A model generated the notes under the pieces. That model was not told where the DNA came from. It made no database searches and saw nothing but the letters and a program-made list of their open reading frames with translations. 64,000 nt of DNA from Enterococcus rotai. GTDB lineage: Bacteria; Bacillota; Bacilli; Lactobacillales; Enterococcaceae. Positions 2,190 to 45,378 of this stretch are shown one piece after another. The stretch covers positions 3,535,091 through 3,599,090 of the forward strand of contig NZ_CP013655.1 of NCBI RefSeq assembly GCF_001465345.1, written 5' to 3'. The translations under genes were made by a program, and so were the position numbers. Position 1 is the stretch's first letter. The number at the start of each line of letters is the position of its first letter.

Positions 2190-3164
2190 TTAGGCATCTA
2201 CACCAGGTTCTGAAGCAATAATCGTCAAGTCTCCTTCGATACGCCATTTTGCGATATCATTCGGTAAAATAAAGCTTGTTCTTTTACTTAATTCATAGCT
2301 TTCAGTTTTAACCGTCTCAACCTCTTCAATAATCAACTGACCGACACCATCAATGACTGTTGCTAATGTATACGGCGCATTTTTTTTAAGATTCAATACA
2401 CCTTTAACTTGCCATTCATATACATTGAAAAAAGGTGTTTTCAAGTAGGTAATAATACTTGATTGTCCTTGGTTTTGTTGTTGGATCGATAATTGTGCCT
2501 CTTTAGCTGGAACTGTCGTAACATCCACAGATTGTTGAATATGCAGTTCTCTCGTTTGGCCTTGATCATCTTTTCTATCGTAGTCATACACCCGATACGT
2601 TGTATCACTACTTTGTTGTGTTTCTAAAATCATGATCCCTTTACCGATTGCATGGATCGTTCCACTTGGCACATAGAAAAAGTCACCTTTTTTAACTGGA
2701 ACTTTTTTCAGTAAATCATCCCAACGTGCTTCTTTGATCATTGCTTCTAGTTCTTCACGGCTCTTGGCATTATGTCCATAAATGATCGTAGATCCTGGTT
2801 CAGCATCGATAATATACCAACACTCGGTTTTTCCAAGTTCGCCTTCATGAGCCAATCCATAAGTATCGTCTGGATGCACTTGCACAGATAAATCATCTTC
2901 CGCGTCCAAAATTTTGGTTAATAAAGGAAAAACATCGCCCTTGGCATGACCAAACAGTTCACGGTGATTTGCCCAAAGTTCGTCGAGTTTTTGCCCAGAA
3001 AATTCACCATTCTCCACAGTACTAACACCATGAGGATGAGCACTGATTGCCCAGTCTTCTCCGATTTTATTACTTGGTAAGTCAAAACCGAATACAGTGT
3101 GTAAACGATCTCCACCCCAAATTTTTTCTTGGAATACTGGTTTTAGAAATAAAGGTTGCTGCAT
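2190..3164 (-). CDS. manA: Mannose-6-phosphate isomerase, class I
   Basis: Type-I phosphomannose isomerase of 324 residues that interconverts mannose-6-phosphate and fructose-6-phosphate in the cytoplasm. The zinc-site motif QVHPDD and the following KTECWYII segment sit in the first third. GTIHAIG and LETQQSSDTTYR give the second part of the cupin active site. The length is normal for the short Gram-positive form. An AGGGAG ribosome site precedes the ATG. It appears to be transcribed alone or with the genes upstream (3207-5119). Confidence 0.93.
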   Translation of the reverse strand: MQQPLFLKPVFQEKIWGGDRLHTVFGFDLPSNKIGEDWAISAHPHGVSTVENGEFSGQKLDELWANHRELFGHAKGDVFPLLTKILDAEDDLSVQVHPDDTYGLAHEGELGKTECWYIIDAEPGSTIIYGHNAKSREELEAMIKEARWDDLLKKVPVKKGDFFYVPSGTIHAIGKGIMILETQQSSDTTYRVYDYDRKDDQGQTRELHIQQSVDVTTVPAKEAQLSIQQQNQGQSSIITYLKTPFFNVYEWQVKGVLNLKKNAPYTLATVIDGVGQLIIEEVETVKTESYELSKRTSFILPNDIAKWRIEGDLTIIASEPGVDA

Positions 3165-3206
3165 AGTTTAGAGACTCCCTTCCATTTATACTCGTAAATT
3201 ATACCA

Positions 3207-4247
3207 CTAAAAAGAAAGCGATTCATCTTTGTTTGCTATTTTTTCTTTCAAATAAATGTCAATCAATTCATCTCTTTTTTCAATGTACGTTGCTCTCTCA
3301 TCTATAGGATGAACTCGATTAGATAGAAAAATAAACGCTTCTTTTTCTTTTAGATCAATTAGCAAAAAAGTTCCTGTATACCCAGTATGAAATAAAAACG
3401 GCCTTCCTGTTAAATCAGCTTTCAAATCCCATCCTAAAGAACGATGTCCGCACTTATCTGGTGTTTGATCCGCCAACAACGAACGAACTGTCTGCTTTCT
3501 TAATACTCTCGTTTTCTGATACAGACCTTCATTCAAATACATTGAGGTGAATTTTTTAAGATCAGCTAAGTTAGTAAATAAACCAGCATTGCCAGCATGT
3601 TCTGCTAAAACAAACGCTTTTGGATCGTGAGCTTGTCCGCGAATCACGCCTCTTACAGGGTGGTTTTCTGTTGGTACGGTTTTGGATGGATCTGAAGGTA
3701 AAAAGCAACTATCCGTCATATCCAAGGGGTCTAAAACACGTTCCTTAAAAATTTCAATGACGTCTTTATCTAGCAATTCTTCTAACATAAATCCCAATAA
3801 AATCGTCCCAGTATCTGTATAGGCAACTTTTTTTCCTAAAGATTCCCCTGAGCGAACCAGATTATAGGCCTGCTGCAATTCACTTTTCGATAAAGCATCT
3901 CGATTTTCAATATAACTTTGAATATCAGATGTATGAGTCAATAGATGTCGAATCGTTATTTTTTGATCTTCAAATACTGGATAATAATTTTTGAAAGGTG
4001 CGTCAATTTCGATAATCTGCTCTTCCATCAATTGTAAGACCACTGTTGTTGTACAAATCACTTTTGTCAAAGAGGCAACATCAAAAAGCAGCGAAGGCTT
4101 TAGCTCTTCGACTGCAGGTATAAGTTGAGCATTTCCCCAGGTATGATCTTCGGATGCTGTATCCGTCATAAATGAAAAACTAACACCAGGAAAAACCCCC
4201 TCATTCATCAAAGTCTTGATTTTTCTGCTTGTTTCTTTATACATCAT
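3207..4247 (-). CDS. Serine hydrolase, beta-lactamase/DD-peptidase family
   Basis: Protein of 346 residues with the class C beta-lactamase/esterase fold. The SxxK nucleophile motif is Ser59-Leu-Thr-Lys62. The second motif is Tyr143-Thr-Asp145, the YxD variant seen in esterase-like members. An HTG triad near residue 299 stands in for KTG. No signal peptide or membrane segment is visible, so it is probably cytoplasmic. It may act on a peptide or ester; the substrate cannot be told from sequence and clinical beta-lactamase activity is not implied. It lies 35 bases downstream of the VOC gene. Confidence 0.85.
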   Translation of the reverse strand: MMYKETSRKIKTLMNEGVFPGVSFSFMTDTASEDHTWGNAQLIPAVEELKPSLLFDVASLTKVICTTTVVLQLMEEQIIEIDAPFKNYYPVFEDQKITIRHLLTHTSDIQSYIENRDALSKSELQQAYNLVRSGESLGKKVAYTDTGTILLGFMLEELLDKDVIEIFKERVLDPLDMTDSCFLPSDPSKTVPTENHPVRGVIRGQAHDPKAFVLAEHAGNAGLFTNLADLKKFTSMYLNEGLYQKTRVLRKQTVRSLLADQTPDKCGHRSLGWDLKADLTGRPFLFHTGYTGTFLLIDLKEKEAFIFLSNRVHPIDERATYIEKRDELIDIYLKEKIANKDESLSF

Positions 4248-6652: not shown

Positions 6653-7359
6653 CGAATCACCTCTTCTTCAAGAAAGCGTCCATCTTTCATATGAATCACT
6701 CGAGTGGCATATTTCTTCATATCGGCATCATGAGTAACCATTACGATCGTCTTTCCTTGACGATTCAGTTCAGTCAATAACTCCATGATTTCTGTTCCCG
6801 TCTCACTATCCAATGCTCCTGTAGGTTCATCAGCCATGATCAAAAGTGGATCATTGACTAAAGAACGCGCAATCGCTACACGTTGTTGTTGCCCACCAGA
6901 TAATTCATTCACTTTTGCTTTTGTTTTTGCCCCTAAACCAACCAACTCTAGATATTTTTCAGCAATCTTGCGCTTTTCATCATTGCTTTTTTTGCCTTCA
7001 TAAACACAAGGCAACTGCACATTCTGACTAACATTCAGCGAATTGATCAAAAAGAACTGTTGGAAAATAAAACCCAAATATTCATTACGGAATTCTGATT
7101 TCTTGTTTTCTGAAAGAGTTGAAACATCTTCTCCTTTGAAAAGATAATTTCCATCAGACACTCGATCTAAAAATCCAATGATATTCATCAAGGTGGTTTT
7201 CCCACTTCCAGATTTTCCCATGATCATAATAAATTCACCTTCATTGATCGTCAAATCCAATGATTTTAAAACCTGCAATTTTTCTTTCCCAACAGGAAAA
7301 TACTTATTGATTGCTTGCATCTGAATAAGAGGTCGCGGGCTTTGCTCTTGTTGTATCAT
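6649..7359 (-). CDS. ABC transporter ATP-binding protein, MacB/LolD type
   Basis: Cytoplasmic ATPase of 236 residues that partners the downstream permease. The Walker A motif GKSGSGKTT is at residues 48-56. The signature LSGGQQQR, Walker [10 protein letters not shown] and an H-loop VTHD follow in order. The N-terminal layout ([11 protein letters not shown]) is that of LolD/MacB ATPases. The ribosome site AGGAGG lies before the ATG, 11 bases downstream of the adaptor gene. Confidence 0.93.
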
Positions 7360-7370
7360 GTCTGCTCCTC

Positions 7371-8531
7371 CTATTCTTTTGCTGCTGGCGCTGCTTCTCC
7401 CGATTCATCTGTGCCTTCTCCAATTAAATCGCCTTCTTTGACTTCTTTCTTAGAAGAAACAATTATTCGATCTGCAGATTCTAATCCTGAATTTATAATT
7501 GTATTTTCTCCTTTTTCTTCACCAACTTGTACATCACGGCGAATTACAGAACCAAAGTCATTGACCAATACATATTTTTTACCATCTTGTTCATGAACTG
7601 CCTTTTTAGGGACCTCGATTGGTTTACTATCTCCTAAATTGATCGTCGCTTGCATATGATAGCCATTTTTTATTCCTTCTAAACTATCAAGCGATAATTT
7701 TACATTATAATTGGACATCGATCCTTCAGCATTACTGCTCTCACCTTGAGTTGCTTTAGCTTCTGGCGGATTGTCATCAATATACGAAATTTTTCCAGTT
7801 ACTGTAGTGCCACTTGAAACAACAGAAAGATTTGCTTTTTGATCAACAGCGATTTTCATTAAATCTTTTTCATTTACTTTTCCAGCAACGTATAGACCAT
7901 CTGATGTTAATCGAAGAACAGGGGCATTTTCATCCTTTACTTCTGGGATAGAAACGCGGCCTTTGAATTTTGCTTTGGTAGAGATAAATTGCTTGGTAGA
8001 CAGGTCAGCTACCGTTTCATTTGAAAACAAAATTTCTTCATCCACGCCATCGACCTCAGCTTGATGTTGTTCATCAATCGCGGCTCCGTTTGTTGTTCGG
8101 TCTTCTTCTTTTGTTTTATTATAAGTATCGATTGCTCGATTCCATTTCTTATAAATATTCTGTTTTTTTGTCGCTAGTTTACTTAGGGTATTATTTTGCG
8201 CTTCGATTTCTTTTGTGATTTCTTTATCTTCATAGGTAAATAATATTGTCTCAGGTTCGACAACGTCCCCATTATTTACTTTGATTTCTGGTGTACTTGT
8301 CATTTTTGCATCTTTTGAAAAAGCTTCTGCCTGTTCCGGTTGTACTACACCATTGATATAGACTTGTTCAATATCTGGAACTTCAAAGTATTCGATACCT
8401 AGATCTTCCGTAGCCGCTTTCTGATCTGAACTAGCGGATGGTTTTCCACCAAATAAATTAGGAAGAATAAATAGACCGATAAGCACCACAGCAACTATTC
8501 CAACAATAATCATTATTTTTTTCTTTTTCAT
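7371..8531 (-). CDS. Efflux adaptor (membrane-fusion-like) protein, MacA/HlyD type
   Basis: Protein of 386 residues, first gene of the efflux operon. An N-terminal membrane anchor (residues about 5-25) follows a lysine-rich start. Next come a lipoyl/hairpin region with a helical stretch near residues 120-170, then beta-barrel domains typical of RND/ABC adaptor proteins (KAVHEQDGKKYVLV, GLESADRIIV). I chose the ATG at 8531 rather than 8546 because AGGAG lies 7 bases before it, whereas the earlier ATG abuts its own AGGAG. Confidence 0.88.
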   Translation of the reverse strand: MKKKKIMIIVGIVAVVLIGLFILPNLFGGKPSASSDQKAATEDLGIEYFEVPDIEQVYINGVVQPEQAEAFSKDAKMTSTPEIKVNNGDVVEPETILFTYEDKEITKEIEAQNNTLSKLATKKQNIYKKWNRAIDTYNKTKEEDRTTNGAAIDEQHQAEVDGVDEEILFSNETVADLSTKQFISTKAKFKGRVSIPEVKDENAPVLRLTSDGLYVAGKVNEKDLMKIAVDQKANLSVVSSGTTVTGKISYIDDNPPEAKATQGESSNAEGSMSNYNVKLSLDSLEGIKNGYHMQATINLGDSKPIEVPKKAVHEQDGKKYVLVNDFGSVIRRDVQVGEEKGENTIINSGLESADRIIVSSKKEVKEGDLIGEGTDESGEAAPAAKE

Positions 8532-10165: not shown

Positions 10166-10216
10166 AGTCACTCCTCCTTGTAAATTTACTATACAACAAT
10201 TAGAAAACTGCTTCAA

Positions 10217-10259
10217 AGAAAAAGACAATCATGAACGTAATTCTTAGTCATGATTGTCT
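10217..10259 (-). terminator. Terminator downstream of the small-peptide transcript
   Basis: Perfect 12-bp stem AGACAATCATGA / TCATGATTGTCT with TTTTTC following on the minus strand. It would end a transcript that starts upstream of the 19-residue peptide gene. Confidence 0.75.
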
Positions 10260-10367
10260 ATCTCTATTTTGTAAATTAATCTTCCATAATAGTAAAAAAT
10301 AACTACCAATTTATTTATATCAATGTTATAATTACATAAATAGTATTTTATTAAAAATACTGTCGAT

Positions 10368-10419
10368 GCATCTTCTAACAGCACTAAACTTCCCCAAGCT
10401 TTGAAATGTTAGAAGATGC
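10368..10419 (-). repeat. 13-bp inverted repeat after the small-peptide gene
   Basis: Perfect arms GCATCTTCTAACA / TGTTAGAAGATGC separated by 26 bases, which can pair further around a GGGG loop. No T run follows at once, so it is a structured 3' region rather than a clear terminator. Confidence 0.75.
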
Positions 10420-10427
10420 TTATAGAT

Positions 10428-10487
10428 TTAAGTTCCTACAGTGAAAGCAAATAAACTAAACAATACAACAGCAACACCTAAAGTCAT
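10428..10487 (-). CDS. Short hydrophobic peptide, candidate pheromone precursor
   Basis: A 19-codon frame preceded by GGAGGG 7 bases before its ATG and ended by TAA. The product is MTLGVAVVLFSLFAFTVGT: almost wholly hydrophobic and without charged residues. It is divergent from the Rgg/PrgX-like regulator at 10703. Short hydrophobic peptides beside Rgg-family genes are exported, processed and re-imported signals. The LFSL segment resembles the enterococcal pheromone cAD1 (LFSLVLAG, from memory). A leader peptide or a membrane-active toxin is an alternative. Function is inferred from context only. Confidence 0.6.
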   Translation of the reverse strand: MTLGVAVVLFSLFAFTVGT

Positions 10488-10702
10488 TTTTTCTCCCTCC
10501 AATCTATGATTATTTATAAAAGCTATTCTATATAAAAATATCTTTCATAAGATTATTTTAACAAACAACAAGACTTAAATAAACAACAATTGGATAAAAT
10601 TGCATAAAACACTAAAATAAATGCTTTTTTTTTATAATATATGTTTTTTACACAAAAACACTTGTTTTCTTATCATACGTGCAATTTTTAGGAGTGAATC
10701 AT
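10488..10702. promoter_or_regulatory. Divergent regulatory region, peptide gene / rgg
   Basis: AT-rich region of 215 bases. It holds a direct repeat AAACAACAA at 10563-10571 and 10581-10589, an 18-base period (about two helical turns). TATAAT at 10633-10638 is a possible -10 for the regulator gene, but no well-spaced -35 is visible. The repeats are candidate binding sites for the neighbouring regulator. Confidence 0.45.
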
Positions 10703-11611
10703 ATGAACATAGGCGAAACGTTAAGATTTTTCAGAAAGAAATTACATCTGACACAAAAAGAAATGTTGGATAATCATTTAGATCCTTCCTCTTATTCCCG
10801 TATCGAGCACGGGAAACAAATTATCAGAATTGATACTTTAGCTGAAATTTTAAAAAAATTATCCCTCTCACCTGAAGAATTTTTTGCACGAATCTCTTTG
10901 GATGAAGACCAAAAAAAATTTAAGGCACTATTTTACTATTGTGCTGAACATTTAGATAATCAATCTATGAAACAAAAATTAGTTGATTACTATCTTAAAC
11001 TAGCAAAGTTTCAACACAATTTAAAAGAACTTTCAAATTATATTGTTATTAAAGTTTACTTTTCTCAATTTTGGAGTGAGATTGATCCTATTACTGATAA
11101 AGAGATTCAAGAGATAGTCAAATACTTATTAAAAAAAGATTATTATCAACAATTCGATTATCTAATTATATCAAATACTATTAGATTTTTTAGTACCAAA
11201 CAACAAGACCTAGTTCTTTCAAGAGCAATTCCAATTTCTGATGAGGATTTAAGAGATTCTACAACTTTGAATTTTGCTTATAATATGCTTACAAATGTCA
11301 TTTCCTCTAGAATTCATGAAAGAGATTATGAAGGTGCAGCGAAGTATCTATCAATTGCAAAAAAACAAGATAAAAAAGGTAAAAATTATAATTTTCGTAT
11401 GAATCTCCAATATTTAAATAACTTGCTAGAGTATTTAGTAACGGGAGAGCACCATTACATGGAGTATCTATATGACTTTATCAAATTAATTGAAAATATT
11501 GGTGACCTTCAGCAAGCGGAAACTTTGAAAAAAGAGGTTACCTATTTGACTCACAGTAATTTCACCGTAACCGATAAAACAAGCTTTCCAAATGGCTTAT
11601 TCAGATATTAA
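10703..11611 (+). CDS. Rgg/PrgX-type peptide-responsive transcriptional regulator
   Basis: Regulator of 302 residues with an N-terminal XRE helix-turn-helix (about residues 4-62: IGETLRFFRKKLHLTQKEM then SRIEHGKQ). The long all-helical C-terminal region has the size and character of the TPR-like peptide-binding domains of Rgg, PrgX and TraA. I chose the ATG at 10703, with AGGAG 8 bases upstream; the open frame extends to a GTG at 10679. A short hydrophobic peptide gene is divergent on its left, as in several Rgg/SHP systems. Its targets and peptide are inference. Confidence 0.85.
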   Translation: MNIGETLRFFRKKLHLTQKEMLDNHLDPSSYSRIEHGKQIIRIDTLAEILKKLSLSPEEFFARISLDEDQKKFKALFYYCAEHLDNQSMKQKLVDYYLKLAKFQHNLKELSNYIVIKVYFSQFWSEIDPITDKEIQEIVKYLLKKDYYQQFDYLIISNTIRFFSTKQQDLVLSRAIPISDEDLRDSTTLNFAYNMLTNVISSRIHERDYEGAAKYLSIAKKQDKKGKNYNFRMNLQYLNNLLEYLVTGEHHYMEYLYDFIKLIENIGDLQQAETLKKEVTYLTHSNFTVTDKTSFPNGLFRY

Positions 11612-44043: not shown

Positions 44044-44075
44044 ATAGTCATTAACATTACTGAATACTATCTACT

Positions 44076-44172
44076 AAAAAGAACCTTCTACCTAAGTGTA
44101 CGAACCTTTTGAAGTTAGAATTTATCATCTAACTTCGAGGATTACGACATCCTTGATAGAAGGTTCTTTTTT
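44076..44172. terminator. Long bidirectional terminator
   Basis: Outer stem AAAAAGAACCTTCTA / TAGAAGGTTCTTTTT and inner stem GAAGTTAGA / TCTAACTTC. It lies between the convergent MerR gene and the frameshifted membrane-protein gene. Confidence 0.85.
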
Positions 44173-45378
44173 AAATAACTGTCCCTTTTGTATCAAGTTC
44201 GATTGAACGCAGGATTTCTTGTACTTGTTGCTCTAAATCAAGGTCATCCATTTGAGAAGTAGCTGTTATTTCACACATGATCCAGCCATAATTATGACCT
44301 GTTTCAAAAAAATAAGTCGTATAATTGCTAGAATCTGACTGACCATTTTTACTAGTTTTGGTGGTGATGATATATTCGTTTTTGAACAAATCAGGATGTA
44401 ACGTTTCGCTCGTTTTTTTATCGTTTATTTTACCGTCGTCTTCTAGCACTTGACCTACAAATTCTGATAAGCTAGTTGCATTTGACACTTGGCTCATGAG
44501 GATCGAAACATAGAGCGTGGGACTACTGAAGGCTTTACTTGCCAGTCCTTTTACTTCATCCGCTGATGACAATTCACCTTTTTCTTCATGAAAATGCTTT
44601 GGCAACTGAATTTTCAACGTTTCATTTTCATTGGTGACAGCAAGCTCACTAATCCTTACCTGCGTCTCTTGACCAATATTATCCTCATATTCCCCCTCAA
44701 CCCTTTTTTCATATAAGGTTCGACCGTCGTCTTGTAAGTATGTTTTTGCACCAAAATAAACTAACGTACCTAGTACGGCTAGTAAAATAAGCGTTAAAAC
44801 AGTGGTCTTGATTCTTCTTCTTTTACGCTTTGCAATAAAATTAGTATTTTTTAGTATTTCTTTTTTATAATTCGCCGAATGTTTGATTTGAGTGATATCA
44901 TAGTAAAAAATTGTAGTGGCTGTTCTAGTCCATTTTTATTTATTTCGTCTGTAAAACCGACTAACAAGGTATATTGTCTGATCTTTGACGGAAAATTTCG
45001 AGTGTTTTTCTTTTTCAATTTAACAAATAACGCTTGATCATCTGAAAAATAATACGCTTGGTCATCTTCTTGGATTTCAATCGAAGCCATTTTATGAAAC
45101 TCATTTGGTAACTGTTCTTTTATTTGCTGGAAATACGCTTCAAATGTTTCAGCTCGCAAATAACGGAACAAATAGACTACAATACCAGCTTCAATTAAAA
45201 AGACAGCAATCAGCAACCATCTAACGATTGATTCAGTGGCTCCAATTCCAATAGCGGTTCCCAACATGACCGCCAGCAGAATCAATAGATATTTTTGATA
45301 GGTCTTTAGATACAATTGTCGGATACCTGATTGATAATACTCTAAATCGTGTTCGATGTTTTCTTTATTTTCTTTCAT
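44171..45378 (-). pseudogene. Membrane protein gene split by a -1 frameshift
   Basis: The 5' part (45378-44851, 175 codons) encodes two membrane helices (about 28-50, 54-72) and a soluble domain and ends in a short out-of-frame tail. At the T6 run (A6 on the plus strand, 44905-44910) a shift of -1 opens a continuous frame of 96 stop-free codons. That frame encodes YYDITQIKHSANYKKEI, a basic stretch and a third helix, and runs into the 3' frame ending at 44171. The whole would be about 402 residues. One missing T, an assembly error or programmed slippage could explain it. The family is not recognised. Confidence 0.8.

Follow-up and report, generated by a model that had tools for sequence, protein, structure and literature searches.

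A chromosomal peptide-receptor cassette of Enterococcus rotai with a probable pheromone-plasmid-like layout

In the chromosome of Enterococcus rotai we identified a divergent locus that is probably a self-contained cassette for peptide signalling, organized like a pheromone-plasmid control region, with a receptor, a peptide, an antisense RNA and a threshold switch. The locus lies in a stretch of 64,000 nt (the window; contig NZ_CP013655.1, positions 3,535,091 to 3,599,090) of a genome that consists of one contig of 3,746,111 bases. An earlier note on this DNA had described a pair, i.e. a short hydrophobic peptide gene divergent from an Rgg/PrgX-like regulator. Comparative genomics supports the pairing well (peptide ORFs at 57 of 80 loci, pN/pS values, covariation and the PrgX profile match); that reading was incomplete, as it missed a predicted convergent antisense RNA, a terminator-like hairpin downstream and the accessory character of a cassette with chromosomal and prophage relatives. 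Selection on the peptide, receptor class, RNA structure with its -10 box, the terminator-like hairpin and the presence or absence of the cassette were all computed. The features, in window coordinates, are as follows.

10703..11611, plus strand: regulator of peptide-receptor type and PrgX/TraA/Rgg class (302 aa), with an HTH followed by an all-helical C-terminal domain
10647..10676, plus strand: possible regulator promoter TTTACA-18-TATCAT (10/12 matches)
10495-10500, minus strand: SD sequence GGAGGG of the peptide gene, 7 nt from the ATG
10428..10487, minus strand: peptide gene, MTLGVAVVLFSLFAFTVGT, 19 aa, with same-place relatives in L033-L037
10339..10430, plus strand: antisense RNA predicted to converge on the peptide gene (folding z -6.9), its 5' end set at about +7 relative to the -10 box and its 3' end uncertain
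10340-10361 and 10368-10419, plus strand: first and main hairpin of this RNA, the main one with loop CUUCCCCAAG at 10389-10398
10324..10332, plus strand: TGTTATAAT, an extended -10 box predicted for this RNA, with TGNTATA(A/C)T in L033-L037
10216..10259, minus strand: terminator-like hairpin AGACAATCATGA...TCATGATTGTCT plus T run (-14.3 kcal/mol, z -2.5)
10216..10188, minus strand: promoter-like TTGAAG-17-TATAGT of the gmk-like gene, kept in the cassette-free gaps L197-L201
9578..10165, minus strand: guanylate-kinase-like (gmk-like) neighbour, outside the cassette, in 22/22 genus genomes

The arrangement given in the earlier note was borne out: a 302-residue regulator on the plus strand is divergent from a minus-strand frame of 19 codons (10487..10428), whose ATG follows GGAGGG at a distance of 7 nt. 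The regulator promoter candidate is weak, since the region holds seven promoter-like sites against 4.4 expected.

The class of the regulator could be assigned more closely. Pfam detected HTH_3 (31.3 bits) and Rgg_C (28.2 bits, just above the cut-off of 27), and TIGR01716 scored 25.2, under its cut-off of 36.9. A single-sequence phmmer search against solved structures listed Rgg/MutR chains and no PrgX, whereas a profile built from 45 family sequences placed PrgX first (2.8e-28 over residues 2-288), followed by an unnamed regulator (9lth, 4e-18), Rgg2-type chains (2.2e-15) and RopB (6e-4). Pairwise identity was 30% over 187 aa with TraA of pTEF1 (E 1e-18) and only 20% over 229 aa with PrgX (E 3e-4). 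The AF2 model (mean pLDDT 88.8, pTM 0.81) is all helical past the HTH. Thus the receptor class named earlier holds, with a profile closer to PrgX/TraA than to the Rgg-SHP type; judged by this profile, the receptor is of the PrgX/TraA class.

To place the peptide in a family we searched for the regulator in 105 genomes of the same family, 66 of which had a match; the 22 genomes of the same genus all had matches, 2 to 17 each if fragments and distant ones are counted. From 80 stretches around related regulators we took 80 upstream regions (three stretches gave two starts, and the fragments L109-L111, with no usable start, were left out). A peptide ORF was defined as a frame of 14-24 aa with no charged residue, mean hydropathy of at least 1 and an SD sequence, located at -60 to -320 on the divergent strand. 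Such ORFs, 16-22 aa long, were present in 57 of the 80 regions and in none of the same 80 when the opposite strand was scanned; over 50 Markov shuffles the mean was 0.5 loci and the maximum three. Because the criterion was fixed after a first list of peptides had been viewed, the weight rests on these controls and not on the count alone. In the whole window the same criterion selected one ORF on the minus strand, the peptide gene itself, and three on the plus strand. The remaining 23 regions had no ORF of this kind; a looser scan found plausible peptides with charged residues in five of them (L063, L068, L070, L095 and L101). Many of the family peptides end in GG.

The earlier note had named conservation of the frame at the coding level in related genomes as a check on its reading, and such conservation is seen. 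The pN/pS ratio of the peptide was 0.55 in the window group (five sequences; L033, identical to the window, omitted) and 0.52, 0.73, 0.32 and 0.52 in four other groups (17, 6, 3 and 6 sequences), the five groups covering 37 of the 57 peptides with a range of 0.32-0.73. Every group varied most at third codon positions, the margin being only 33 versus 32 in one group of six. The length changes in L036 and L037, of 6 and 9 nt, are both in frame. By these comparisons the peptide frame is under selection. Peptide distance was also correlated with distance of the receptor C-terminal domain when the HTH was held fixed (partial r 0.443), in contrast to HTH distance with the C-terminal domain held fixed (partial r -0.052); both values are for 55 of the 57 loci, L069 and L093 being omitted for their short receptors. 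None of 2000 permutations reached the raw peptide-receptor correlation, which we treat as supportive only, since related sequences are not independent.

Three details given earlier for the peptide and its upstream region fared differently. The lack of N-terminal lysines is correct, there being no K or R in MTLGVAVVLFSLFAFTVGT; the 57 family peptides lack them as well, though here the criterion had excluded charged residues. The C-terminal LFSLFAFTVGT, or part of it, is a candidate for the signal. The stretch LFSL, shared with the pheromone cAD1, is kept in L033 and L035 and replaced by LVGL, AGVF and VGLF in L034, L036 and L037. As an argument for a cAD1-like signal it is therefore unsupported, and we rejected it; given this lack of conservation, the likeness is probably a coincidence. 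The two AAACAACAA repeats between the genes are present (10563-10571 and 10581-10589), while conservation lends no support to the argument built on them. The 9-mer occurs five times in the window against 2.77 expected, a number reached by 16 of 100 shuffles; the copy at 10563-10571 is altered in L034-L037 and that at 10581-10589 is exact in L033 and L034 only. As a binding site the repeat was rejected, the 9-mer being not clearly enriched and its copies not kept.

Beyond the peptide stop, many family loci have a strong hairpin. A search for TGNTATA(A/C/T)T within 260 nt beyond the stop gave 26 of the 57 peptide loci with the box on the regulator strand and one with it on the peptide strand (300 shuffles: mean 2.4, maximum 7); 31 of the 57, among them the whole 17-member MIS group, have no strict box. 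Changes on both sides of a pair were observed at 5 of 14 pairs over eight window-type RNAs and at 11 of 40 pairs over six prophage-type RNAs. On the regulator strand, G.U cells outnumbered A.C cells by 19 to 2 (A2) and 12 to 0 (A4) in consensus structures derived on that strand; A2 derived on the peptide strand still gave 8 versus 2 in the same direction. Alifold energies on the regulator and the peptide strand were -46.0 versus -36.9 and -17.8 versus -6.2 kcal/mol. Taken by itself, the window hairpin is slightly more stable on the peptide strand (-29.1 versus -26.7), and the window RNA has a poor U run. Rfam had no match over the window RNA at E up to 1 or over the predicted RNA in 18 relatives at E up to 0.5, and a known RNA family was rejected on these grounds. 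Conserved structure and a -10 box are thus present on the regulator strand, and the RNA itself is predicted. The terminator-like hairpin at 10216..10259 corresponds in position to IRS1 of pCF10, and each of the six orthologues (L032-L037) has a hairpin of this kind ahead of the gmk-like gene; a consensus terminator scan with a loop limit of 3-8 listed none at these coordinates.

These strand data bear on a simpler account, in which the locus is a plain Rgg/SHP or RopB/leaderless-peptide pair with no antisense control and the hairpin is just the end of the peptide transcript. A divergent peptide adjoining its receptor would be expected of such a pair, and the Rgg_C score just above cut-off, the Rgg/MutR chains listed by phmmer with no PrgX, the slight preference of the window hairpin alone for the peptide strand and the 31 loci with no strict -10 box all agree with it, as does the uncharged hydrophobic peptide, a property of leaderless communication peptides (LCPs) in the part of the published account available (PMC10518010). 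We nevertheless consider this account unlikely: the family profile favours PrgX with TIGR01716 under cut-off, the 57 peptides are 16-22 and not 8-10 aa long, and the strand bias of the -10 box together with the G.U bias indicates the regulator strand.

The reading that we prefer, a cassette with the layout of a pheromone-plasmid control region, was compared directly with the plasmid RNAs. Promoter PX yields the prgX mRNA and Anti-Q (mD in pAD1); Anti-Q, a branched RNA antisense to prgQ that has a poly-U tract, promotes termination at IRS1, as given in the accessible part of PMC7117660. On the pCF10 strand opposite prgQ we found TGTTATACT, a hairpin of the form GUUGUAAC..GUUGCAAC and, with a U run, a closed three-way junction. 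RNA models were built from six prophage-type RNAs (R1), from the window type (R2) and from the RNAs of pCF10 and four other plasmid-type loci (R3). R1 matched five plasmid loci with a receptor of the same class, with E-values of 3.4e-4 (L188), 7.5e-4 (L114), 0.012 (L115 and L187) and 0.029 (L186), L115, L187 and L186 being near-copies; it also gave three weak opposite-strand matches and found neither pCF10 nor pTEF1. R3 was run on 42 of the 80 stretches and three plasmid loci and gave 18 matches at E up to 1, five of them weaker and on the opposite strand. Nine other cassettes (L058, L106, L053, L060, L073, L065, L096, L061 and L095) were matched at the predicted place and strand with E from 1e-4 to 0.09, eight of them among the 25 searched loci with a -10 box; further matches were to L101 (6e-17), pTEF1, L186 and L187. 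The other 17 of these 25 loci were missed, among them all of the window type and the prophage loci L084, L087, L093, L094, L102 and L103, and the stretches of L084, L094, L102 and L103 were missed by R1 as well.

An Anti-Q-type ancestry of the RNA is supported by these models for part of the family, and for some prophage relatives the matching to plasmid RNAs of this type works both ways. Neither R1 nor R3 matched the window RNA, and the branched Anti-Q fold was not found in the window, so that this RNA resembles Anti-Q in place, strand, promoter and hairpin. R3 did match the window at 44061-44176 on the plus strand (E 0.0016, 23.7 bits), where a branched hairpin and its U run follow a MerR-like gene. 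We judged the match false, as the 5' hairpin is broken and the whole looks like an ordinary branched terminator, which it probably is; it makes a useful false-positive control, from which it follows that matches of 20-25 bits prove little if place is left aside.

In the 22 genomes of the genus, R1 had 13 matches in eight genomes (six being training sequences), 12 of them with a receptor match inside the 3-kb locus (the exception is L156); the receptor match is weak or partial at L152, L157, L158, L160 and L161. R2 gave 21 rows in 13 of the 22 genomes; of its 16 matches at E up to 1e-6 (eight training), 12 adjoin an intact receptor, two adjoin receptor fragments (L172 and L176), and at L171 and L178 the window-type hairpin occurs with no receptor match nearby.

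Several of these loci differ in layout. In three from one genome (L157, L158 and L161) an Anti-Q-type RNA occurs together with a receptor that is very divergent and an Iad-like precursor that contains lysine (MNFNKKEKIKALLSLAVAFSLTLVA in L158). On the plasmids of L114, L115 and L186-L188 the receptor and the peptide gene are in tandem on one strand with the antisense RNA opposite the peptide gene; here the peptide-RNA unit is preserved and the orientation of the receptor is changed. The mD region of pTEF1 (L183, 5296-5397, minus strand) is apparently truncated by an IS1216 copy.

The likeness to the plasmid systems extends to the whole unit. PrgX, PrgQ (the iCF10 precursor) and Anti-Q of pCF10, and TraA, Iad and mD of pAD1, comprise a receptor of the same class as that of the window cassette, a short hydrophobic peptide gene likewise transcribed away from it and followed by a terminator, and an antisense RNA that starts beyond the peptide gene (from an extended -10 in pCF10), as predicted here (PMC7117660, in the part available). 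In contrast to the window peptide, the plasmid precursors examined here have a basic N-terminus; conjugation genes lie downstream on the plasmids, whereas the window cassette has none and is chromosomal and accessory; and Anti-Q is branched, the window RNA a simple hairpin. The Rgg-SHP pairs of streptococci have the same HTH receptor and a divergent short hydrophobic peptide. SHPs end in GG, as do the peptides of many relatives, but they carry a KK N-terminus that is absent here, and the E. rotai locus has a predicted antisense RNA and a receptor profile nearer PrgX. RopB-LCP pairs, including that of E. malodoratus, share an uncharged leaderless hydrophobic peptide divergent from an Rgg-class receptor; in the text of PMC10518010 available, their peptides are mostly of 8-10 aa, compared with 19 aa in the window and 16-22 aa in the 57, and no such pairs were detected in phages or prophages.

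If the window cassette works like the plasmid control regions, the peptide would be exported (PptAB-type), trimmed (Eep-type) and re-imported, and the receptor would bind it in the cytoplasm and alter transcription of the peptide gene. The source genome has an EcsB-like gene (405 bits), EcsB presumably corresponding to PptB, and an RseP/Eep-like gene (298.6 bits). The small RNA, transcribed from the far side toward the peptide gene, would be antisense to the peptide mRNA; made steadily, it would drive an early end of peptide transcripts at the IRS1-like hairpin. Once peptide transcription outran the antisense RNA the transcript would extend, and the outcome would be a threshold switch. Here we infer the making of the RNA, secretion, binding, the direction of regulation, attenuation and the output.

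A short hydrophobic peptide facing a convergent antisense RNA is also the layout of type I toxin-antitoxin loci, e.g. Fst/par of pAD1. The peptide could then be membrane-active and silenced by the RNA, the regulator being incidental. We hold this to be quite improbable, because one receptor family repeatedly has such ORFs at its side, the peptides and the receptor C-terminal domain co-vary, the peptide has no charged tail and the closest layout is that of the pheromone-plasmid control region.

The surroundings and distribution of the window cassette were analysed in the 22 genomes of the genus. An orthologue (at least 63% identity) was present in six, each time beside the gmk-like gene. Among the 16 cassette-free genomes six were read, and none had a receptor between the gmk-like and bgl genes; the gaps were of 117-238 nt in five and of 1,683 nt in one, the latter with a 460-aa ORF taken for a transposase. 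As the neighbours stand side by side in the cassette-free genomes read, the window cassette is accessory and cargo-free. These features, together with the presence in 6/22 genomes, relatives in prophages and plasmids and the decayed relatives L172 and L176, would also fit a decayed plasmid or prophage remnant with no present function, which is highly improbable given a receptor frame that stays open in each of the six orthologues, even at 63% identity, in-frame peptide indels with pN/pS of 0.55 and compensatory changes in the RNA.

No dedicated output gene was found at the window cassette, which sits between the gmk-like and bgl genes. The gmk-like gene was rejected as a dedicated target, as it is present in 22/22 genomes and its own promoter-like sequence is kept where the cassette is missing; for the latter reason read-through of the peptide transcript into this gene is only possible. 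As outputs of the switch, distant genes controlled by the receptor or targets of the CUUCCCC loop of the RNA are guesses. A reading of the window as a phage was rejected: the nearest genes are an ABC exporter, TetR, gmk-like and bgl/PTS, all but the gmk-like gene being named by reading ORFs.

Relatives of the cassette do occur in prophages. Ten relatives were chosen for their phage-like surroundings, and in eight the tested neighbour was an integrase (six tyrosine, two serine), the exceptions being L121 and L130. On the other side an HTH repressor-like ORF was found in nine of the ten scanned prophage-type relatives; in the tenth, L116, the ORF scanned (6855-7271) was not the repressor-like one (7152-7538). 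Terminase and portal genes were located within about 25 kb in all four prophage-type relatives that were followed further. One scan of viral contigs found no relative, and no tRNA was found in seven loci. In L102, L096 and L084 the integrase is followed in turn by the receptor, the peptide, the predicted antisense RNA, a small ORF and the repressor-like gene. The integrases beside the prophage relatives suggest an arbitrium-like role there. With arbitrium of Bacillus phages (AimR-AimP-AimX) these relatives share a receptor and a peptide in the neighbourhood of an integrase and of an HTH gene of repressor type; they differ in having a receptor of the PrgX/Rgg class, a divergent peptide and a predicted antisense RNA, and the window copy lies outside a prophage.

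Tentatively, and with slightly more doubt than confidence, we propose that the pheromone switch of enterococcal plasmids is one branch of a far larger family, found also in lysogeny regions of enterococcal prophages, where it would serve as a PrgX-type, RNA-thresholded counterpart of arbitrium, and in cargo-free chromosomal cassettes like that of the window; a single cell would then have several parallel private channels with leaderless peptide precursors. Published surveys, in the parts available, show few such receptors in enterococci: Table 1 of PMC9765709 gives the Enterococcus receptors of the superfamily as '<1 (PrgX)', and PMC10518010 adds leaderless peptides in a few enterococcal species; here each of 22 genomes had 2 to 17 matches, fragments and distant ones included. 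Among the matches listed in open-licence PMC (titles and starts of abstracts, preprints lying outside), none dealt with PrgX-type peptide and antisense cassettes in enterococcal prophages or with this locus. Should the prophage copies be functional, enterococcal temperate phages would signal by the same kind of circuit as plasmid mating, and evolution of the circuit would be testable by comparing its plasmid, phage and chromosomal versions.

Some observations on individual phage-type loci may be added. The small ORF of L102, L096 and L084 (about 33-49 aa) runs in the direction of the peptide gene and could be a switch output. The E. faecalis phage Efs 1-1-1 (L112; 4736, minus strand) has a receptor of the family; divergent from it lies an ORF of 15 aa, MFDFDISLFLITLFR, whose SD sequence is strong. 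R1 found no RNA there. In L084, at 3093-3326 on the far side of the receptor, the Rfam Enterococcus sRNAs RefB11 (over the gathering threshold) and RefA9 (just under it) were matched.
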